IMG/VR virus record: IMGVR_UViG_3300031565_000366
Span: 1-24,104 of that record
Source of the DNA: a virus
DNA length: 24,104 nt
Direction: 5' to 3' (one strand)
The notes below the pieces were generated by a model that was not told the DNA's origin, made no database searches, and worked only from the letters and a program-made list of their open reading frames with translations. Position 1 is the first letter of the stretch. Each line of letters begins with the position of its first letter. Shown one piece after another: positions 1,629 to 12,770 of this stretch. Position numbers and translations under genes: made by a program.

Positions 1629-2071
1629 ATTTGACGCTAGAAAGGTTTGCTTATCTGGGCGACTGTACGCGAGGAGTATTGTATGTTGGGAATAACACTT
1701 TCCAAACCATCGAAAGACCTTGGGTCAAGAATCCAGATGGTAAGGGCGGGCTACCGTTTGAAAGCTGTGTTCCGGATGGTACGTATCATTTGCGGCCGTT
1801 TACCCGTCCTTCTGGGAAGAAGGCTTTTATTTTATCGAATCCAGATAACGGGGTTTTCGAGCAGAAGGAAGATATTGAAGGACCCGCCGGCCGGTACTTG
1901 ATCCTCATCCACGCCGGCAACACAACCGCTGACGTAGTCGGCTGTATAGCTCCCGGCTTGACCGGCGGAGACAGAGCAGTTGGTAGCTCGCGAAACGCGA
2001 TGTTGAAGCTGCATGAGCTTTTGGATGGCGGCGAACACGAGTTGAGAATTGCGCCAAAGGGCGCTACTTAA
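1625..2071 (+). CDS. DUF5675-like protein, candidate muralytic enzyme
   Basis: This 148-residue protein starts MNLTLERFAY, followed by an ERPW motif at 30-33, a CVPDGTY segment at 48-54 and ILIHAGN at 93-99. GCIAPG at 106-111 and a Ser-Ser-Arg-Asn-Ala stretch at 121-125 follow. This order matches the DUF5675 family, known from phage and bacterial genomes and without a firmly assigned reaction. The H96/C107 pair is reminiscent of the His...Gly-Cys arrangement of L,D-transpeptidase-type enzymes, but that link is only suggestive. It overlaps terL by four bases. No other lysozyme, amidase or peptidase is visible in the window while a holin/spanin cassette is, so a role in wall degradation is a reasonable inference. 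The open frame extends upstream to 1496 inside terL, but the ribosome binding site supports 1625. Its last 8 bases overlap the convergent gene on the minus strand. Confidence 0.75.
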   Translation: MNLTLERFAYLGDCTRGVLYVGNNTFQTIERPWVKNPDGKGGLPFESCVPDGTYHLRPFTRPSGKKAFILSNPDNGVFEQKEDIEGPAGRYLILIHAGNTTADVVGCIAPGLTGGDRAVGSSRNAMLKLHELLDGGEHELRIAPKGAT

Positions 2072-2600
2072 GCGAGAGGAATTTCGACACTGTTAACAGC
2101 TTGCTGGAAAGCCAGCCGCCAACAGTAGTGGCTTTCCACGTGGCAACGGCCATACTCCATACCGCGTCGGAGATGTTGTCAAGGTCAACCTGAGTTAGAC
2201 CCCCACCAGTTTCTGATACATACACACCAGCAGCAGAGGTGTTGTTGACGAAATTGACCAACGGGTTGGCGGCAAAAATATCAATACCATCTGCCAGCGA
2301 CACTGTATTTCCATCGCCTACGGTAAGTGTTCCTGATACAGAGAAGCTGTTTATTTTCCAGCCATCCAGAAGAATCACGTTCAAGAAGGTTTCTGCCGAT
2401 GCTGTCAGGGTCACTGGATTACCTGTAGTCATAATTGGGCGACGGTACATACCCTGCGTACCGTCCTGTGCGTCATGGATGGCAGACTTTAGATCGGCAG
2501 CCGAAACTTCAAGCACCCCGGACTCTATGGTTATTTCTTCGGCAATCCAGTCAAAGCTGTAGTCTGTTGTGCCGATGGTAGTAACAAATTCGACTGCCAT
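2064..2600 (-). CDS. Small fibre-associated virion protein (178 aa)
   Basis: This is the last gene of the minus-strand operon, beginning 1 base after the stop of the 637-residue fibre gene. The ATG at 2600-2598 has only a weak ribosome binding site, so translation may depend on the upstream gene. The N-terminal half is beta-rich. A central segment (VSGTLTVGDGNTVSLADG) looks like a repeat-type fibre strand. The C-terminal part has LDNISDAVWSMAVATW, similar to the DAVW-type segment seen near the ends of many phage fibre and virion proteins. Nothing indicates an enzyme. A role as fibre tip, fibre cap or minor virion protein is inferred from context only. Its stop (2064) lies within the convergent DUF5675 gene. 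Confidence 0.6.
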   Translation of the reverse strand: MAVEFVTTIGTTDYSFDWIAEEITIESGVLEVSAADLKSAIHDAQDGTQGMYRRPIMTTGNPVTLTASAETFLNVILLDGWKINSFSVSGTLTVGDGNTVSLADGIDIFAANPLVNFVNNTSAAGVYVSETGGGLTQVDLDNISDAVWSMAVATWKATTVGGWLSSKLLTVSKFLSLK

Positions 2601-2601
2601 G

Positions 2602-4515
2602 TTATTGGTCCAACAGTAGGGCGACGGTTGCAGTAAAACCAGCGGTATTGCTGATTGTACCCGTTATTGTTGTTGCTTGATAATAAGGTGCTCCAGATGA
2701 GTCGCGGATCGTACCCTTGAATGGTTGACTGCTTCCGAATGTGCGGGTATCCGACACGATGCCTGAGCCGTTCGTTGTGGTGTGGATAATCACACCAGAG
2801 GCAACAGGCGAGCCTGTGGCTGGCGAAACCGTTCCTGAGTCAACAGCATACGTGTAGCTATTAACGCCAGTGACAGTGATGACAGCGACCTTGTTGTACC
2901 CGTTCTGTGTCGCGCCGCGAATCACTACCTGTGTACCGTTAGGAATGCCGTGCGCGGTATGAGAAACGGTAGCCGTACCCGCTGTCTGCGTGATAGAAAC
3001 CGACTCCTCGAACGGAAGCGGCCCAGCCCCACTGGATGTCTCCAAAAACACCCGGGAACCAACGAGCGGAGTCCCGCTGGTGTCGGTTACTGTGATCTCC
3101 GTGGTAACAGGGTCTTGCACCACCGTCACAGTTACGCCGGCAGAGTCATCTACTGTGAACCCTGAACCGTCTACGGTGCAGCCAACGAGGTTCAGGTTGA
3201 GTGAGCCGCTAGTTGCTAAGAACTTGAACGTAGCGCCATTCGCATCATTGCCACCGTTGAAACCGGAAAAGTCACAGTTCCTGATCGTGATATTACCAGT
3301 AACTGAGGTGCCAAACTCTATAGCAGAATGTGCGTTGGTCCCTTTGGTGAATGTGCAACCATCGAGGTTGCCATCTGGATCAGAGGCTGAGTTCCAAAGC
3401 ACCGCACCAGAGCCGGCAGCAACAATAGAATCTAAGACATTGATGTTCAAGAATGTCGCGTCGGTAGCGGTTATCTGACCGGAGTTCTTAACGGTTCCGC
3501 CAGTCCATGCTACAGCCGAGTCAAGAGTGACCAGTCTTGCTCTGTCGGCAGATAAGTTGGTGGCAGTCACTGAGGTTACGGTGGATAAATCAAGATCAAA
3601 GAACTCAGGTGACGCGGCGGCCAATGAGCCGTTGGTCAGAGTAACAGTGGTTGTGCCGGTACCCTCATCGAGAAATAACCCATAAAACCCAGCAGCAGTT
3701 GCGGCAGTTGTGCCATCAGACAGAACCTGTCCCTGCCACGTGATATTAAAGCCTGAGTCAGAGAAGGTGACGTTACCGGCCGCACCAGAAGGCTGTCCAA
3801 TGCGAATCTTGCACAACGGGAAAAGCGTTCCCGACTTGGTTTCCAGTGCACCAAATCGATTGGTATTCTCATAGGTTGAGAACTCGGAGAACACCGCATC
3901 GGTCCCGGTAATACGATAACCAACGCCGATTGATCCAGTTTGCACATAGGCGTTATCGGATGCACCCATAACCGTGTTGGTAATCTTCCACCGCACCCCG
4001 ATGCCATCGACGCCAGAGAGTTGTGCGGGGTTGCCTGTGGTTGTCCATGAACCCGAGCCGGCAGTGACAACATCGAAGTCCTGTGTCGGGGAGATGACGT
4101 AGTATTCCCAACCACCCTGAGAGTTAGGTTGTGGGCCAACGTACCATGTACCGAATGAATCAGTCGCCAGATCATCCGCAGCGATGATGCCGTAGCCACC
4201 ATTGACTTGTGTATCTCGTGTACCGGCCGCGTTGATGATCATGAAGATGTGGTTTTCGCGATCAGTGCCAGTGGCTGAGAAATCCCACGGCTCGCCAACA
4301 ACACCAGCACCTAAGCCGTAGCCGGTTTGAGTTGCGTTGGATACCTTGTCTGAAATGGATGTCGTGCCAGTCAGAAAGTTATCGGTGTTGGTTGCTACAG
4401 ATAAGGATGATACCCAGCCGGTAACAGTGCTGCCGTCGAAAACTTTCGATACAGTTGCTCCGGGGTTGCCTCCATCACCGGAAACAGATTCGATAAATAC
4501 TACTGTACCTGCCAC
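2602..4515 (-). CDS. Modular tail fibre/spike-like protein (637 aa)
   Basis: This long, Gly/Thr/Ser-rich, almost Lys-free protein is typical of phage fibres. Residues about 60-240 form a beta-sandwich-like part with many aromatic strands (GTWYVGPQP, GGWEYYVIS). Residues about 290-460 carry short repeated strands with N/D turns (LDGCTFT, IRNCDFSGF, LVGCTVDG), which suggest a right-handed beta-helix. Residues 462-495 look like an Ig or carboxypeptidase-regulatory-type sandwich (TDTSGTPLVGSRVFLE). Residues 505-577 match the FCCH-like module common in phage proteins (VSHTAHGIPNGTQVVIRGA). The start is GTG at 4515-4513, supported by GGGAG 8 bases upstream, and it overlaps the preceding gene by 16 bases. 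Catalytic residues of a depolymerase could not be identified by eye. The likely role is receptor binding. Confidence 0.75.
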   Translation of the reverse strand: MAGTVVFIESVSGDGGNPGATVSKVFDGSTVTGWVSSLSVATNTDNFLTGTTSISDKVSNATQTGYGLGAGVVGEPWDFSATGTDRENHIFMIINAAGTRDTQVNGGYGIIAADDLATDSFGTWYVGPQPNSQGGWEYYVISPTQDFDVVTAGSGSWTTTGNPAQLSGVDGIGVRWKITNTVMGASDNAYVQTGSIGVGYRITGTDAVFSEFSTYENTNRFGALETKSGTLFPLCKIRIGQPSGAAGNVTFSDSGFNITWQGQVLSDGTTAATAAGFYGLFLDEGTGTTTVTLTNGSLAAASPEFFDLDLSTVTSVTATNLSADRARLVTLDSAVAWTGGTVKNSGQITATDATFLNINVLDSIVAAGSGAVLWNSASDPDGNLDGCTFTKGTNAHSAIEFGTSVTGNITIRNCDFSGFNGGNDANGATFKFLATSGSLNLNLVGCTVDGSGFTVDDSAGVTVTVVQDPVTTEITVTDTSGTPLVGSRVFLETSSGAGPLPFEESVSITQTAGTATVSHTAHGIPNGTQVVIRGATQNGYNKVAVITVTGVNSYTYAVDSGTVSPATGSPVASGVIIHTTTNGSGIVSDTRTFGSSQPFKGTIRDSSGAPYYQATTITGTISNTAGFTATVALLLDQ

Positions 4516-4901
4516 TTAGATAGCTCCCACAATACAATCGGCACTGCATCACGACTGCTCAATTCACCACCCGGGATTTTCACCCAAGCATCGAAAGTAC
4601 CTTCAAGAGCCCCCATTGCTGGTCCAAAAACTAGCCACCCAACAGACGGCAAATCTGCTTTGCGTAAATCTTCTCCCTTACTTGGCGAGAAGGCGACAAA
4701 CGGCCCTTCCTGAGAATCCATGAACTCTTTCAAACTACCGTATCGGGTGAACCCGAATTCTCGGCGCACACCGTCTACAGTCCCATCTACAAAAGCAGTC
4801 TCTGTGACACCCATTGCCGTCGCAACTAAAGCTAATGACTCTAGCTGCGACGGCAAGATGCCGATTACATCATACTGCTCAACATGCACCAGCAACCTCA
4901 T
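4500..4901 (-). CDS. Small protein with SPOUT (SpoU/TrmH)-like motif order, 133 aa
   Basis: The start overlaps the stop of the preceding gene as TAATG, so it is probably translationally coupled. The sequence is unlike its fibre neighbours: mixed alpha/beta with balanced charge. An N-terminal strand (MRLLVHVEQYDVIG) is followed by a helix and the strand TAMGVTETAFVDG at 28-40. Next come a SLKEFM helix at 56-61, a strand GPFVAFSPS at 66-74, LVFGPAMGA at 90-98, VKIPGG at 107-112 and SSRDAVPIVLWEL at 115-127. This order recalls SPOUT-class RNA 2'-O-methyltransferases such as TrmL/TrmH, where a LVFGPE..G motif precedes an IP...S..A...YE motif. The catalytic Asn/Arg of motif 1 and the Glu of motif 2 are not seen, so it may be a divergent or inactive fold. 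The gene itself is well supported; the fold assignment is tentative. Confidence 0.6.
   Translation of the reverse strand: MRLLVHVEQYDVIGILPSQLESLALVATAMGVTETAFVDGTVDGVRREFGFTRYGSLKEFMDSQEGPFVAFSPSKGEDLRKADLPSVGWLVFGPAMGALEGTFDAWVKIPGGELSSRDAVPIVLWELSKWQVQ
4524..4528 (-). promoter_or_regulatory. Ribosome binding site supporting a GTG start
   Basis: GGGAG on the minus strand lies 8 bases before the GTG at 4515-4513, inside the end of the upstream gene. No ATG lies close by in that frame, so the GTG start is accepted. Confidence 0.65.
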
Positions 4902-6661
4902 TACAGGTCGAGGACACGAGATACTGCCTGTGAGCCTCCGGTAGAGCCAAGAATTGCAACTGTCTCGAACGGCACAATCGGGTTCACCGCTGGGGTTCCG
5001 GTGTATCCATTACGCACTCTGACCACAAGGTTGCGCGGGGAGTCATAAACCACCGTTACAGCCTCAGTTGCAGTAACTGCTTGCTCGTCCAACCACGTTG
5101 GGAAGAAGAAGTTACCCGTTGTCACCGAGTCGTTGTCACCTGAACCGCTGAAGTCATAGGAGGGAATCGTGTACGTCGACCCGGTGTAACTGGTGTAAGG
5201 AATCTTGACGTAGCGTCCCTCATCATTCTGAACACGAATGCTGCCAGTTGCAGGGGTGTCTGTTGGGATGGCCGTAGTCACCACGATGCTCGTTACCGTT
5301 GCACCACTAAGCGTACCGTTGATCGTATCGAACTCAAGATCAAGCGCACCAGTAGCCTCAGGGCCGACAAGAACGTAATCTTCTTGGCCGCCGGTAATAT
5401 CCAGACCCGTAACACTGAACACGACGTTGTTGGGCGGGCTGAGTGGGTTGCCATCGAGTGAGGTTACGCTGTCGTTGACCGCGAGGTCAGCCGGCAAGAT
5501 ACCCAAACCGTATGCACCAATGATCGCAGAACCCGTTGAAGCTCCGATAAACGGCAGAGAAATCAACTCGGGCGTTACTGTACCAATAGTCCAGCCTGTT
5601 GCTGTACCTGCTCCTGCACTAATAAGTGTTCCAGTAGGAGCTACACCTGTGAGGAGTTGTAACCAAACAGTAGTGGGAGAACCCAGGCTATCAGTAGCGA
5701 GCAACTGTCCAGTACCGCCGGTCCATGAGACTGCTTCAGGCTCAACAAACGCTCCTGCGCCACCTGAGACTGCAACTGCATGAGTAATGCCTCGGAAGAT
5801 ATCACCGGGAAGACCGTAAAGACTCTGGTCTGCATCGCGAGCCGGCGTATCAACGCCGATACCTGCGACTCGGGTTGTAATCCACTTTGCGCGCTCGTAA
5901 AACTGGTTCTTGGTAAACGCCGCTACCGTCCAGTTCGAGTAGTAGAACTCGTTGGTCGTGTCAGCATTAGCGTCAAGACCTACATAGCCTTCGCTGGAAT
6001 TGACAATCGTGTCCCACGTAGCAATGGTTGCATCGGCGGTAGCGTTGTTCAAATCACTGTTCGCGGTCAGGGCCAGTACGTTGTTACCTCGCGCCGTGCC
6101 ACCACCAATTAAGAACTCGGTGTAGACCGTACCAAGCTCTCGCTGCGTACCGATCAAACGTCGGCCATCGATGTCAGCACCGGCAGTGCGAACCTTAACC
6201 AAGAACCTGTGCGACGTAGAAGACGCGGCATCTTCAACAGCCGTAATCATCTTTGGCTGGTTCCAGAAGTCATTGACGATTCTTGCACCGTTCTGGATGA
6301 CCTGAATGTTGGTTGCGTTACCAAACACCTGAATACCGTCGTAGATATCTGCGCCACCGTTGTAGGTGATCGACGTATCGTAGATGTGTTCCTGCGGCCC
6401 TTCAGCAGTTGCCGAGGTCAGGATATACCCGTTCAACAACGTGATGTTGGTGTCCGCGCCCAATCGCTGCGACGGCACCAGATCGATGATCGCGATCTGA
6501 TCGTCACCCGTATCGGATGCCGCATCAGCAAGATCCATCAATGCTCTGTGGAGCTCAATACCCGTGACATACGTTGGGGCAGTGCCCGCGTGTAGGTCAC
6601 CTATATACTCAATCTCCTTAGATGATCGAGTGATTTTCCAGTCTGCTGCTACCCACGCCAT
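4901..6661 (-). CDS. Large virion structural/fibre-like protein (586 aa)
   Basis: The start ATG at 6661-6659 is preceded by a good GAGGA site about 7 bases away. The first 130 residues are mixed alpha/beta (WKITRSSKEIEYIGD, then DGIQVFGNATNIQVIQNGARI at 108-128). Residues 150-300 contain several short beta elements and an aromatic cluster around 235-265 (NEFYYSNWTVAAFTKNQFYE). The C-terminal 120 residues have repeated Gly/Asp turns and end in a VLGSTGG-type segment. The protein resembles large structural proteins of uncultured marine-type podoviruses, but I cannot place it in a named family. It lies first among the large fibre-like genes of the inverted operon, so a proximal attachment part is possible. 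That role is inference. Confidence 0.65.
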   Translation of the reverse strand: MAWVAADWKITRSSKEIEYIGDLHAGTAPTYVTGIELHRALMDLADAASDTGDDQIAIIDLVPSQRLGADTNITLLNGYILTSATAEGPQEHIYDTSITYNGGADIYDGIQVFGNATNIQVIQNGARIVNDFWNQPKMITAVEDAASSTSHRFLVKVRTAGADIDGRRLIGTQRELGTVYTEFLIGGGTARGNNVLALTANSDLNNATADATIATWDTIVNSSEGYVGLDANADTTNEFYYSNWTVAAFTKNQFYERAKWITTRVAGIGVDTPARDADQSLYGLPGDIFRGITHAVAVSGGAGAFVEPEAVSWTGGTGQLLATDSLGSPTTVWLQLLTGVAPTGTLISAGAGTATGWTIGTVTPELISLPFIGASTGSAIIGAYGLGILPADLAVNDSVTSLDGNPLSPPNNVVFSVTGLDITGGQEDYVLVGPEATGALDLEFDTINGTLSGATVTSIVVTTAIPTDTPATGSIRVQNDEGRYVKIPYTSYTGSTYTIPSYDFSGSGDNDSVTTGNFFFPTWLDEQAVTATEAVTVVYDSPRNLVVRVRNGYTGTPAVNPIVPFETVAILGSTGGSQAVSRVLDL

Positions 6662-6671
6662 CGAAGTATCC

Positions 6672-7130
6672 TCATGTGTATGTTAAAGAAAGGCGGTTGT
6701 CCCAAATGTTGTCTCGGTTGCTGTTTCCATCAGCCCATGTAGTTACAGCGTCAGTGTTTCCGTTTCCATCTACTGTAAATACAATCTTCTTGATGCTCCA
6801 AGATGCGGAGCTGTTTGCCGTGCCCGGGAGAGCGTCACCGATATAAAGCGTATCGCCGTCGTCTTCTTCATCTACACGTGATGCATTTTTCAATTTGTCC
6901 ACTCCAAAATCTGTTCGTATCCATGACCCCGGAGTCGAGTCATCAGGTTCTATGATATCAACTCCATCGTCTGATCTCACGTCTGTGTCATCAAATAGGA
7001 ACCAGCCTTCTTCGTTACCAACAAGAACTGAGGCGAGGTCGTTGTGAATAGGGGCTTCCAACTCCCGTAATTCTGCGTAGGTCCTTGCTCGTAGCGTTGC
7101 GGAGCGTTGTACACGTTGAATGCCCGCCAT
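6672..7130 (-). CDS. Small virion/fibre-like protein (152 aa)
   Basis: The start ATG overlaps the stop of the ParB-like gene (TAATG) and has AAGG 7 bases upstream. An early helix (SATLRARTYAELREL) is followed by GWFLFDDTDVRSDDGVDIIE and then PGSWIRT at about 68-74. This combination of a short aromatic strand, an acidic DDG turn and a GSW.R motif is common in the N-terminal part of phage tail and pectate-lyase-like proteins, where it marks a virion-attachment module. The C-terminus (ADGNSNRDNIWDNRLSLTY) is beta-like. The gene ends 10 bases before the 586-residue protein begins. No enzymatic motif is visible. A role as a small fibre or fibre-attachment protein is an inference. Confidence 0.6.
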   Translation of the reverse strand: MAGIQRVQRSATLRARTYAELRELEAPIHNDLASVLVGNEEGWFLFDDTDVRSDDGVDIIEPDDSTPGSWIRTDFGVDKLKNASRVDEEDDGDTLYIGDALPGTANSSASWSIKKIVFTVDGNGNTDAVTTWADGNSNRDNIWDNRLSLTYT

Positions 7131-7591
7131 TACGCAACCTTAAGTATTGTCGGGTCATTTGTTTTCTCTGCGATGAACTTGAGTATGAATTGCGCCCAAG
7201 CACTTTTCTTCCATAGCTCATCACCGGGATGGAGCTCCTTCATTCTTGAAAGGAACACGTCGTCTGTTAGTCGTTCAGCAGTGCCGTCTTCATACATAGG
7301 TTCAGTACACCTGTGTATTGCCACTACTTTAATTGTTTCGTACCCAAGGAGCAGTGCTGCTTCTACTCGGTTGTTGCCCATGGCAATTCTGTATTTTGGA
7401 CCGGAGTCAACTTCTACGACAATTGGATTGATTAACCCGTTCGTTTCGATGTCGTCTTTCAGTGATAGGAAAGCTTCTTTAGTCATACCGCCAGTCTTCA
7501 TTCCGTCGAAGTACAAGTGAGGCTTGTCTATCAAGGTGAGCCTTCCTATGGGGAACTCTTTGAGGTACCAAGCCTTATACCGGCAATTCAT
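7130..7591 (-). CDS. ParB-like (ParB/Srx fold) protein, 153 aa
   Basis: This is the first gene of the minus-strand operon. The N-terminal two-thirds show the ParB/sulfiredoxin-fold pattern. A helix FLSLKDDIETNGLINPIVVE at about 42-61 is followed by a short strand KYRIAMGNNRVEAALLLGYE (GNNRVEAA in place of the usual GxRRxxAA or GNHRLEAA) and then the strand TIKVVAI. ParB-fold proteins can be CTP/DNA-binding factors, nucleases or kinases; phage members are often solitary, without a ParA partner, as here. The C-terminal third (about residues 95-153) is alpha-helical and lacks a recognisable helix-turn-helix. An AAGGA site lies 9 bases before the ATG. Its position beside the divergent promoter makes a regulatory role possible, but this is not demonstrated. 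Confidence 0.75.
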   Translation of the reverse strand: MNCRYKAWYLKEFPIGRLTLIDKPHLYFDGMKTGGMTKEAFLSLKDDIETNGLINPIVVEVDSGPKYRIAMGNNRVEAALLLGYETIKVVAIHRCTEPMYEDGTAERLTDDVFLSRMKELHPGDELWKKSAWAQFILKFIAEKTNDPTILKVA

Positions 7592-7615
7592 CTCCCCAGT
7601 TCCTTGTGATTACTG

Positions 7616-7644
7616 TTGACACGAGCTTGTTTATAAACGATATT
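7616..7644 (+). promoter_or_regulatory. Sigma-70-like promoter for the rightward portal operon
   Basis: A perfect -35 hexamer TTGACA at 7616-7621 is followed after a 17-base spacer by GATATT at 7639-7644 (4 of 6 matches to TATAAT). Transcription would start near 7651, about 25 bases before the portal start. It lies in one of the few non-coding gaps of the window and points at the structural operon. Confidence 0.6.
7629..7638. repeat. 10-bp perfect palindrome GTTTATAAAC between the divergent promoters
   Basis: GTTTATAAAC is self-complementary and covers the leftward -10 element while lying in the spacer of the rightward promoter. It could be an operator half-site pair, but a 10-bp AT-rich palindrome may also arise by chance. 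Confidence 0.4.
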
Positions 7645-7658
7645 CCGGATACTAGCAA
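7630..7658 (-). promoter_or_regulatory. Sigma-70-like promoter for the leftward fibre operon
   Basis: On the minus strand, TTGCTA (7658-7653) and TATAAA (7635-7630) are separated by exactly 17 bases. They match the -35 in 4 of 6 positions and the -10 in 5 of 6. Transcription would begin near 7623 and run into the ParB-like gene at 7591. This promoter overlaps the rightward one over 7630-7644. Confidence 0.55.
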
Positions 7659-7675
7659 CTAATTGCGGGCAGCAC

Positions 7676-9736
7676 ATGGCGGGTATTCTACAGGTCGTTT
7701 CCCCCCAGCAGGTTTCCGAGCACGAGGCAGAAGTACTTGCCAAGCGGACCCCTCCTGAACCGGCCATGGAAATGGAGGGACTCGTATCGATCATTCGCCG
7801 CGAGTTTCACGATGCCCGCAATGCCCGCTACACCAATGGTATATCTAAAAGACTCATTGAAGCCCAACGTACCTACCGTGGCGAGTATGACCCCCAGAAG
7901 CTGAGAGATATTAAAGCCTTCGGCGGGTCAGAAGTTTATTCCCGGGTCACCCCCACCAAGTGCCGAGGCGCAACCAGTGTCCTCAGGGACTTGTACCTCA
8001 GTGGAACTGAGCCACCGTGGGACCTATCACCAACCCCCGTACCGACTCTGCCCGAAGACATCACCGCCGCTGTGAACGGGCTGGTCCAGTCGGAAGTGCA
8101 GTCCATGGAACAACAGGGGATGCAGATTACTGAGGCTATGGTTCGCGATCGTCTGAGCCAGTTGTATGAAGCTGCCCACATGGCCGCTGTTAAGAATTCT
8201 GTCGAAGAAGCCAAAGAATCCAGTCGTCAGCTCAATGATGTGTTGATTGAGGGCCGTTTTTACCAAGCGCTCAAAGAATTCCTTATCGACCTGCCGATTT
8301 TCCCTATCGCGTGCATCAAGGGCCCCACTGTCCGTCAGAAGACGAAAGTCCGCTGGAAGGATGGTAAGCCATCTCGGGAGACTTCCCCCAAGCTTTTCTG
8401 GGACCGGATCAGCCCTTTGGACTTGTATTTCACCCCCGATGCTTCGCATCTGGATGAGTCCTATGTCATTGAACACGTTAGGTATTCTCGGCAGGACCTG
8501 TACAATCTCATCGGAGTCCCGGGTTACAAGGAAGATGAAATTCGTTCTGTCCTTGCCGACTTTAAGGACAAGACCCAGTCGAGGTCGTGGCGAGATTGGT
8601 TTGACGAGGAAAGGGAATCCCTTGAGGACCGAGATCATTGGGAGTCCGCCCGTGGCCAGCTCATTGACGCTTTAGAGTGGCATGGCTGCATACAAGGACA
8701 GATGCTGCTGGACCATGGGTTCTCGGAAGATGATATTGATGACCCCGAAAAAGAATATATGGTTGATGCGTGGATAGTTGACCGCTACTGCATCAAGGCG
8801 CAGATCGCGCCAAGCCTGACGAACAGGCCGAACTACTTCATTTCCAGCTTCGAGAAAATTCCCGGCTCTATCTGGGGCTACGGCTTACCGGATATCCTTC
8901 AGGATATCACGTCCGTCTGTAACACGACCATGCGCAGTATTGTCAATAACCTGTCAATAGCTTCCGGGCCGCAGGTTGTTGTCAACCTCGACCGCTTGGC
9001 CCAGAGTGAGGATGCGAATACCTTATACCCGTGGAAACGCTGGCATGTGATTGATGACCCGCTGGGCAACAACGGGCCGGGGAACAAGCCGATCGATTTC
9101 TATCAGCCACAGAGCAACGTCGAGTCGTTGATGGCTGTGTACGAGAAATTCGCCAATATGGCTGACGAAGCATCTGCTCTCCCCAAGTACCTGACAGGAT
9201 CAGGAGCAACAGGAGGTGCCGGCCGCACAGCTTCTGGCCTTGCTATGCTCATGGATAACGCATCTAAAGTAATGCAGAACGTCGCCGCCAATGTGGATGA
9301 TGACGTCCTCACACCAGCGATTGAAGGGCTTTACGAGATGGTGATGATGAGTGACATCGGCCCGCAGCTGAAGGGCGATGAGACTATTGTTGTCAAGGGC
9401 GTGACAGTAGCCGTCCAGAAAGAAACAGATCGTATGCGCAAGCTTGAGTTCTTGCAGATGACCGCGAACCCGATGGATATGCAGATCATGGGTATCCCCG
9501 GCCGCGCAGCTGTGCTACAAGATGTAGCTGAAGAACTTGGTATGAAAGGGAAAAAGGTAGTACCATCGTCCGAAGAACTTCAGGAGAAGATGCAAGAGCA
9601 GGCGAAAGCCTCTCAAGCGGAAGCTGCTGCAAAGGCAGGTGGAGGCGCTCCCGGTGGAGCACCAAGCGCAGGTCGCGACCCCGCAATGGCTGCGAGGGAA
9701 GGACAGGAAAACGTAACCCGAGGAGTAACTCAATGA
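7676..9736 (+). CDS. Portal protein (686 aa)
   Basis: This protein would form the dodecameric channel at one head vertex, docking terminase outside and the connectors below. The N-terminal region (84-115) has the conserved-looking GGSEVYSRVTP and a LRDLYLSG segment. The 240-300 region is clip- or stem-like (FWDRISPLDLYFTPDA). Residues 397-440 (GSIWGYGLPDILQD, then NNLSIASGPQVVVN) and 510-545 (GRTASGLAMLMDNASKVM) match the portal core and its long helix. The C-terminal 80 residues are Gln/Ala/Gly-rich, like a barrel or disordered tail. The ATG at 7676 has no clear ribosome binding site; an in-frame ATG occurs at residue 31. The stop overlaps the next start as ATGA. Confidence 0.88.
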   Translation: MAGILQVVSPQQVSEHEAEVLAKRTPPEPAMEMEGLVSIIRREFHDARNARYTNGISKRLIEAQRTYRGEYDPQKLRDIKAFGGSEVYSRVTPTKCRGATSVLRDLYLSGTEPPWDLSPTPVPTLPEDITAAVNGLVQSEVQSMEQQGMQITEAMVRDRLSQLYEAAHMAAVKNSVEEAKESSRQLNDVLIEGRFYQALKEFLIDLPIFPIACIKGPTVRQKTKVRWKDGKPSRETSPKLFWDRISPLDLYFTPDASHLDESYVIEHVRYSRQDLYNLIGVPGYKEDEIRSVLADFKDKTQSRSWRDWFDEERESLEDRDHWESARGQLIDALEWHGCIQGQMLLDHGFSEDDIDDPEKEYMVDAWIVDRYCIKAQIAPSLTNRPNYFISSFEKIPGSIWGYGLPDILQDITSVCNTTMRSIVNNLSIASGPQVVVNLDRLAQSEDANTLYPWKRWHVIDDPLGNNGPGNKPIDFYQPQSNVESLMAVYEKFANMADEASALPKYLTGSGATGGAGRTASGLAMLMDNASKVMQNVAANVDDDVLTPAIEGLYEMVMMSDIGPQLKGDETIVVKGVTVAVQKETDRMRKLEFLQMTANPMDMQIMGIPGRAAVLQDVAEELGMKGKKVVPSSEELQEKMQEQAKASQAEAAAKAGGGAPGGAPSAGRDPAMAAREGQENVTRGVTQ

Positions 9737-12709: not shown

Positions 12710-12728
12710 TTGTCAGTAGCCCTGACAT

Positions 12729-12756
12729 GGGAGGGGGGTTGTCCCCCTCCCTTTTT
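12729..12756 (+). terminator. Strong intrinsic terminator after the major capsid gene
   Basis: GGGAGGGGG (12729-12737) pairs perfectly with CCCCCTCCC (12743-12751) around a five-base loop GTTGT. The stem is followed at once by TTTTT (12752-12756). All nine stem pairs are intact and eight are G-C. Downstream structural genes would need readthrough or another promoter. Confidence 0.85.
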
Positions 12757-12770
12757 GACTGGAAGATACT

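Follow-up and report, generated by a model that had tools for sequence, protein, structure and literature searches.

In phage lambda, the promoters PR and PRM lie on either side of the operators bound by the repressor and decide between lysis and lysogeny. The locus described here, from an uncultured marine phage, likewise places predicted divergent phage promoters within a compact control gap, but here virion genes are found in both transcription units, and none of the neighbouring genes is a recognised repressor gene. In the Bacillus subtilis conjugative plasmid pLS20, the divergent promoters Pc and Pr overlap, and the regulator RcoLS20 represses one of them, activates the other and loops the DNA (PMC4207663). 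Our locus resembles Pc/Pr in its divergent overlap, in an apparently unequal strength of the two promoters, in a weak start lying beside a strong -35 element and in an occupancy taken as exclusive (PMC4207663); it differs in that no regulator was identified, the hexamer pairs are interlocked and the predicted starts are ~28 bp apart. The two directions of the bidirectional promoters of Escherichia coli have a -10 element in common, the distance between their starts is mostly 18, 10 or 23 bp, and in the tested ones competition is absent at basal strength and appears only where one direction is strong or has been activated (PMC12825309). Divergent starts at one site and one polymerase orientation at a time, as in those promoters (PMC12825309), are predicted here too, and a symmetric A+T-rich -10 region is a feature of both, but the two -10 elements predicted here are separate, with 3 bp between them, and their start spacing matches none of the ~10, 18 or 23 bp of the E. 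coli type.

The whole stretch of DNA that we analysed (the window) is the 24,104-base record of this phage. Its largest gap, 84 bp at 7592-7675 (the runner-up has 61 bp, at 12710-12770), is also the sole gap with divergent genes on either side, in agreement with the initial annotation, which had called it the only sizeable control gap between the two units. In a 47-base stretch of this gap, between the putative tail-fibre genes and the head genes, two opposed -35/-10 pairs of accepted spacing are interlocked and have positions 7630-7644 in common (Table 1). The predicted starts are at ~7651 rightward and ~7623 leftward, and each -35 element falls in the start region of the opposing promoter. 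The hexamer pairs, the 17-bp spacers, the overlap and the palindrome had all been placed correctly to the base before our analysis.

Table 1. Positions in the window of the control elements and of the genes on either side
Feature	Position	Strand	Basis
Predicted rightward sigma70-type promoter, portal/head operon	7616..7644	+	Hexamer pair (TTGACA 7616-7621, GATATT 7639-7644, 17-bp spacer), rank, conservation
Candidate leftward promoter, ParB-like/fibre operon	7630..7658	-	Hexamer pair (TTGCTA 7658-7653, TATAAA 7635-7630, 17-bp spacer), rank, invariant TAGCAA island
Palindrome GTTTATAAAC over the candidate leftward -10	7629..7638		Perfect, 10 bp
34-bp block	7611..7644		Longest exact word common to the window and relatives G003, G004 and G007; single in each contig
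Leftward gene leader	7592..7611	-	Shine-Dalgarno-like AAGG; other bases variable
ParB_N-domain protein, 153 aa, first leftward gene in all relatives with the left flank	7130..7591	-	Pfam
Rest of the leftward unit: 152-aa protein and variable fibre-like proteins	2064..7130	-	Identity in relatives
Portal protein, first rightward structural gene	7676..9736	+	phrog_332 (2.6e-60); Pfam SU10_portal (7.9e-14)

Judged on consensus match alone, the motifs are weak evidence, of modest value. The window holds 9 promoter-like sites by consensus, fewer than the 15.1 in its shuffles, and its 14 perfect 10-bp palindromes give a ~5% chance of finding one in an 84-bp gap. The leftward promoter has 9 of the 12 consensus bases, its -10 being without the final T. 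We also ranked all candidate positions with a sigma70 weight matrix whose hexamer frequencies come from general knowledge; under these E. coli rules, which may not be the host's, the rightward site is 2nd and the leftward site 10th of the 48,156 positions in the window. The corresponding ranks in three long relatives are 2 of 126,376 (G004), 2 of 89,768 (G007) and 3 of 100,018 (G003) for the rightward site, and 25, 24 and 21 for the leftward one.

The relatives were collected through portal searches (portal proteins 78-89% identical), and a pattern search yielded 13 contigs, each carrying the element once. We aligned 10 distinct sequences (lineages), the window included. The two ends of G004 (IMGVR_UViG_3300009509_000021; 63,214 bp) carry the same 41 bp as an exact direct repeat, and this contig is probably a complete genome, while G003 and G007 are genome fragments. 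The second-longest exact word common to the window and these three has 18 bp and lies in coding DNA; when the three are compared without the window, it has 26 bp.

Across the 10 lineages, the invariant columns comprise 6/6 of the rightward -35, 15/17 of the spacer, 6/6 of the rightward -10, 2/8 of the following bases, 6/6 of the leftward -35 and 3/17 of the remainder up to the portal start; in the left leader, where AAGG is a putative ribosome-binding element, they number 3/20. TAGCAA, i.e. the leftward -35, is an invariant island between variable flanks (Fisher p = 6e-4), and it had been named as a -35 element before any alignment was made. The leftward promoter is a poor match to the consensus, yet its -35 forms this conserved island. 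The leftward -10 reads TATAAA in nine lineages and TATAAG in one (L009), where the palindrome becomes GCTTATAAAC and loses its symmetry while both -35 hexamers are retained. Three hexamers are thus unchanged in 10/10 lineages, and the leftward -10 and the palindrome in 9/10, so that both hexamer pairs appear to be kept by selection, and the alignment in relatives that the initial annotation suggested as a check comes out in its favour; the palindrome shares in the conservation of the block. In nine lineages, 31/33 core columns are invariant, whereas in the portal gene this is true of 5/125 columns at four-fold codon sites (Fisher p = 2.5e-25), with a mean divergence of 0.013 in the core and 0.56 (56%) at the four-fold sites. 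Because of this core conservation, the site is far beyond chance. The freezing of nearly all 17 spacer bases is not explained by two promoters; the leftward -10, discriminator and start, which would lie within the spacer, account for part of it.

We found no further copies of the element that could form a phage regulon (in each genome the best other sites differ at 9 or more of 29 positions, close to what shuffled sequences give), and none in the cellular genomes of GTDB. A looser pattern matched six extra viral contigs, which were judged to be chance since they carry no relatives of TerL, the ParB-like protein, the portal or MCP. Neither an Rfam family nor a tRNA was found, the consensus RNA fold of the gap has no compensatory pair, and short stems around TAGCAA are no better than shuffles in most lineages. 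A coding cause of the conservation was rejected as well: no open frame common to all relatives runs through the block, and the third-base pattern of variation typical of coding DNA is absent. By DNA the phage has no relatives in INPHARED; the closest known phages by protein are Rhizobium phage RHph_TM3_14A and others, with at most 45% identity.

The rightward unit runs from the portal through a protein in the scaffold position to the major head protein. Directly 3' of the latter gene lies a strong intrinsic-terminator-like hairpin (12729-12756; GGGAGGGGGGTTGTCCCCCTCCC followed by a T-run). The leftward unit encodes the ParB_N protein, the conserved 152-aa protein and long repetitive proteins, for which profile searches of the PHROGs and Pfam type gave no family match and whose repetitive composition and variability point to a fibre role. 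This unit meets, tail to tail, a DUF5675 gene located after the terminase gene. At 2064-2071 the end of the DUF5675 gene (+) overlaps that of the last fibre-like gene (-), so that a terminator would have no space between the convergent units. The gene order is the same in G003, G004 and G007, and a ParB-like neighbour diverges from the portal in every relative with the left flank. The fibre-like proteins of G004 are mostly 29-45% identical to those of the window (one short match reaches 61%), and the 152-aa protein is ~80% and the terminase 85-91% identical in relatives. The fibre-like genes (2064-7130, compared with G003, G004 and G007) diverge strongly beside these two conserved genes. Our data suggest that the fibre cassette is exchanged behind a constant front. 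The late region of G004 ends with a giant ORF of 2,428 aa (44537-51823) with no PHROGs match, and its counterparts have 2,430 aa in G007 and 2,834 aa in G003.

No match to the single-subunit RNA polymerase family PF00940 was found in G003, G004 or G007, while that of phage T7, our positive control, was detected; sigma factor region 2 was not found in these relatives either. The host RNA polymerase would be the simplest reader. An own polymerase with repeated promoters, as in T7-type phages, does not fit an element with one copy per genome. The reading that we favour, with moderate confidence, is that of an interleaved divergent sigma70-type pair read by the host polymerase, in which the head promoter is strong, the fibre promoter is weaker, and the two set a ratio and not a switch. 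The rightward promoter, which is strongly supported, would drive the portal/head operon and be the stronger of the two; the leftward one, moderately supported, would drive the ParB-like protein and the fibre cassette. As each -35 sits at the start region of the opposing promoter, a single polymerase would fill the whole interlocked site at any time, and the geometry, together with the tested overlapping promoters (PMC4207663, PMC12825309), suggests that both could hardly be occupied simultaneously. The expected outcome is a fixed ratio of head to fibre transcription, dominated by the head side because of the consensus -35 on the portal side and the poorer leftward promoter, and possibly shifted by some further factor. 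What we observe is the sequence of the site, its conservation, position and single copy, and its rank among promoter-like sites; from these we infer that both promoters fire, how strong each is, that they exclude each other, that the host polymerase is used and that stoichiometry may be affected.

The initial annotation had proposed a switch between fibres and head genes. Its overlapping divergent promoters are supported, but the switch is not: nothing in the data points to two states, fibres and head proteins are both parts of the virion, and the tested E. coli promoters do not compete at their basal strength (PMC12825309). The label would call for a regulator acting oppositely on the two promoters; none was identified, and the ParB-like protein has no recognised DNA-binding domain.

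The portal side of the junction can be followed further. In a wider set of 58 more distant phages, most with a portal 45-58% identical, TTGACA occurs within 150 bp upstream of the portal in 26, against 9 of 464 control stretches, which are coding DNA of possibly different base composition, so that shuffles make a fairer comparison. The best score beats the phage's own shuffles (p<0.05) in 45% of the 58 for the rightward direction and in 7%, about the level of chance, for the leftward one, i.e. the leftward promoter has no general counterpart in this set. In the distant phages TTGACA and 17 bp frequently precede the portal gene, combined with, e.g., CATATT (L068) or GAAAAT (L015-L017). Often in these phages (L014-L017, L056 and others) the portal gene diverges from a ~160-aa gene followed by the terminase on the - strand, and not from a ParB-like/fibre cassette. 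As distant relatives often seem to have it too, the portal promoter at this junction would be old, and the leftward promoter and the frozen block would belong to the window's clade. The ParB-like/fibre cassette seems to have been placed at the portal junction within this clade.

This asymmetry bears on the rather unlikely alternative that the portal promoter alone is real, TAGCAA and the palindrome being an operator or the portal transcript start and the fibre operon being driven from elsewhere. It would agree with the family-wide support for the rightward promoter only and with the missing last T of the leftward -10. However, the conserved island coincides base for base with the predicted -35 hexamer, precisely 17 bp away from TATAAA. 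The ParB-like gene starts 38 bp past the leftward -10, and the leftward unit has no other gap longer than 10 bp, either inside it or in front. The frozen spacer raises another possibility, which we hold tentatively and which is compatible with the promoter pair: the block may chiefly serve to bind a regulator, coded by the phage or by the host, that covers both promoters and whose contacts freeze the spacer. Such contacts would fit the contrast between core and four-fold columns and a 34-bp word longer than any common coding word, but one copy per genome is unusual for a general late regulator, and none was identified among those non-structural genes, a part of the total, that were annotated.

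The ParB-like protein had been proposed to feed back on this site. As claimed, it is the first leftward product, and we find this in every relative with the left flank; KorB, a ParB-family member, is a transcriptional repressor and turns up in the weak fold matches (structure entries 8qa8 and 8qa9). But Pfam recognises ParB_N only and no helix-turn-helix (NCBIfam gives sub-threshold ParB-family matches), so the ParB_N plus helix-turn-helix make-up of ParB/KorB regulators is not found here. The structure model (mean pLDDT 92.7) finds its best matches in ParB, Noc, PadC, KorB and sulfiredoxin-type domains with low overall TM-scores, i.e. a ParB/Srx-type nucleotide-binding domain only, and the protein is merely 31-63% identical among relatives while the site is frozen. 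Feedback on both promoters is therefore possible but unsupported, and we consider it quite unlikely. A replication origin or a pac-type packaging site with incidental promoter-like hexamers is a similarly improbable reading of the block, less likely than a protein footprint. A single copy and extreme conservation would suit such a site, and the cumulative GC-skew minimum falls in its 1-kb bin in G003 and G007; in G004, however, the minimum is 13 kb off and fits gene orientation, and hexamers with 17-bp spacing recur here in distant phages without the block.

To return to the interleaved promoter pair, we speculate, with low confidence, that the 34-bp block is kept constant by a dedicated factor, from the phage or its host, which would read the interlocked promoter as a whole and set the head-to-fibre transcription ratio or its timing. 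If so, the fibre cassette would be freely exchangeable behind an unchanging control site. The phage in any case has, beside a freely varying fibre cassette, a compact control site that is more strictly conserved in its letters than any of the genes compared. Should both promoters be active and mutually exclusive, the locus would be a natural test of whether promoter competition sets the amounts of head and tail-fibre proteins relative to each other, and would provide a sequence signature for late control sites in a large group of uncultured phages.
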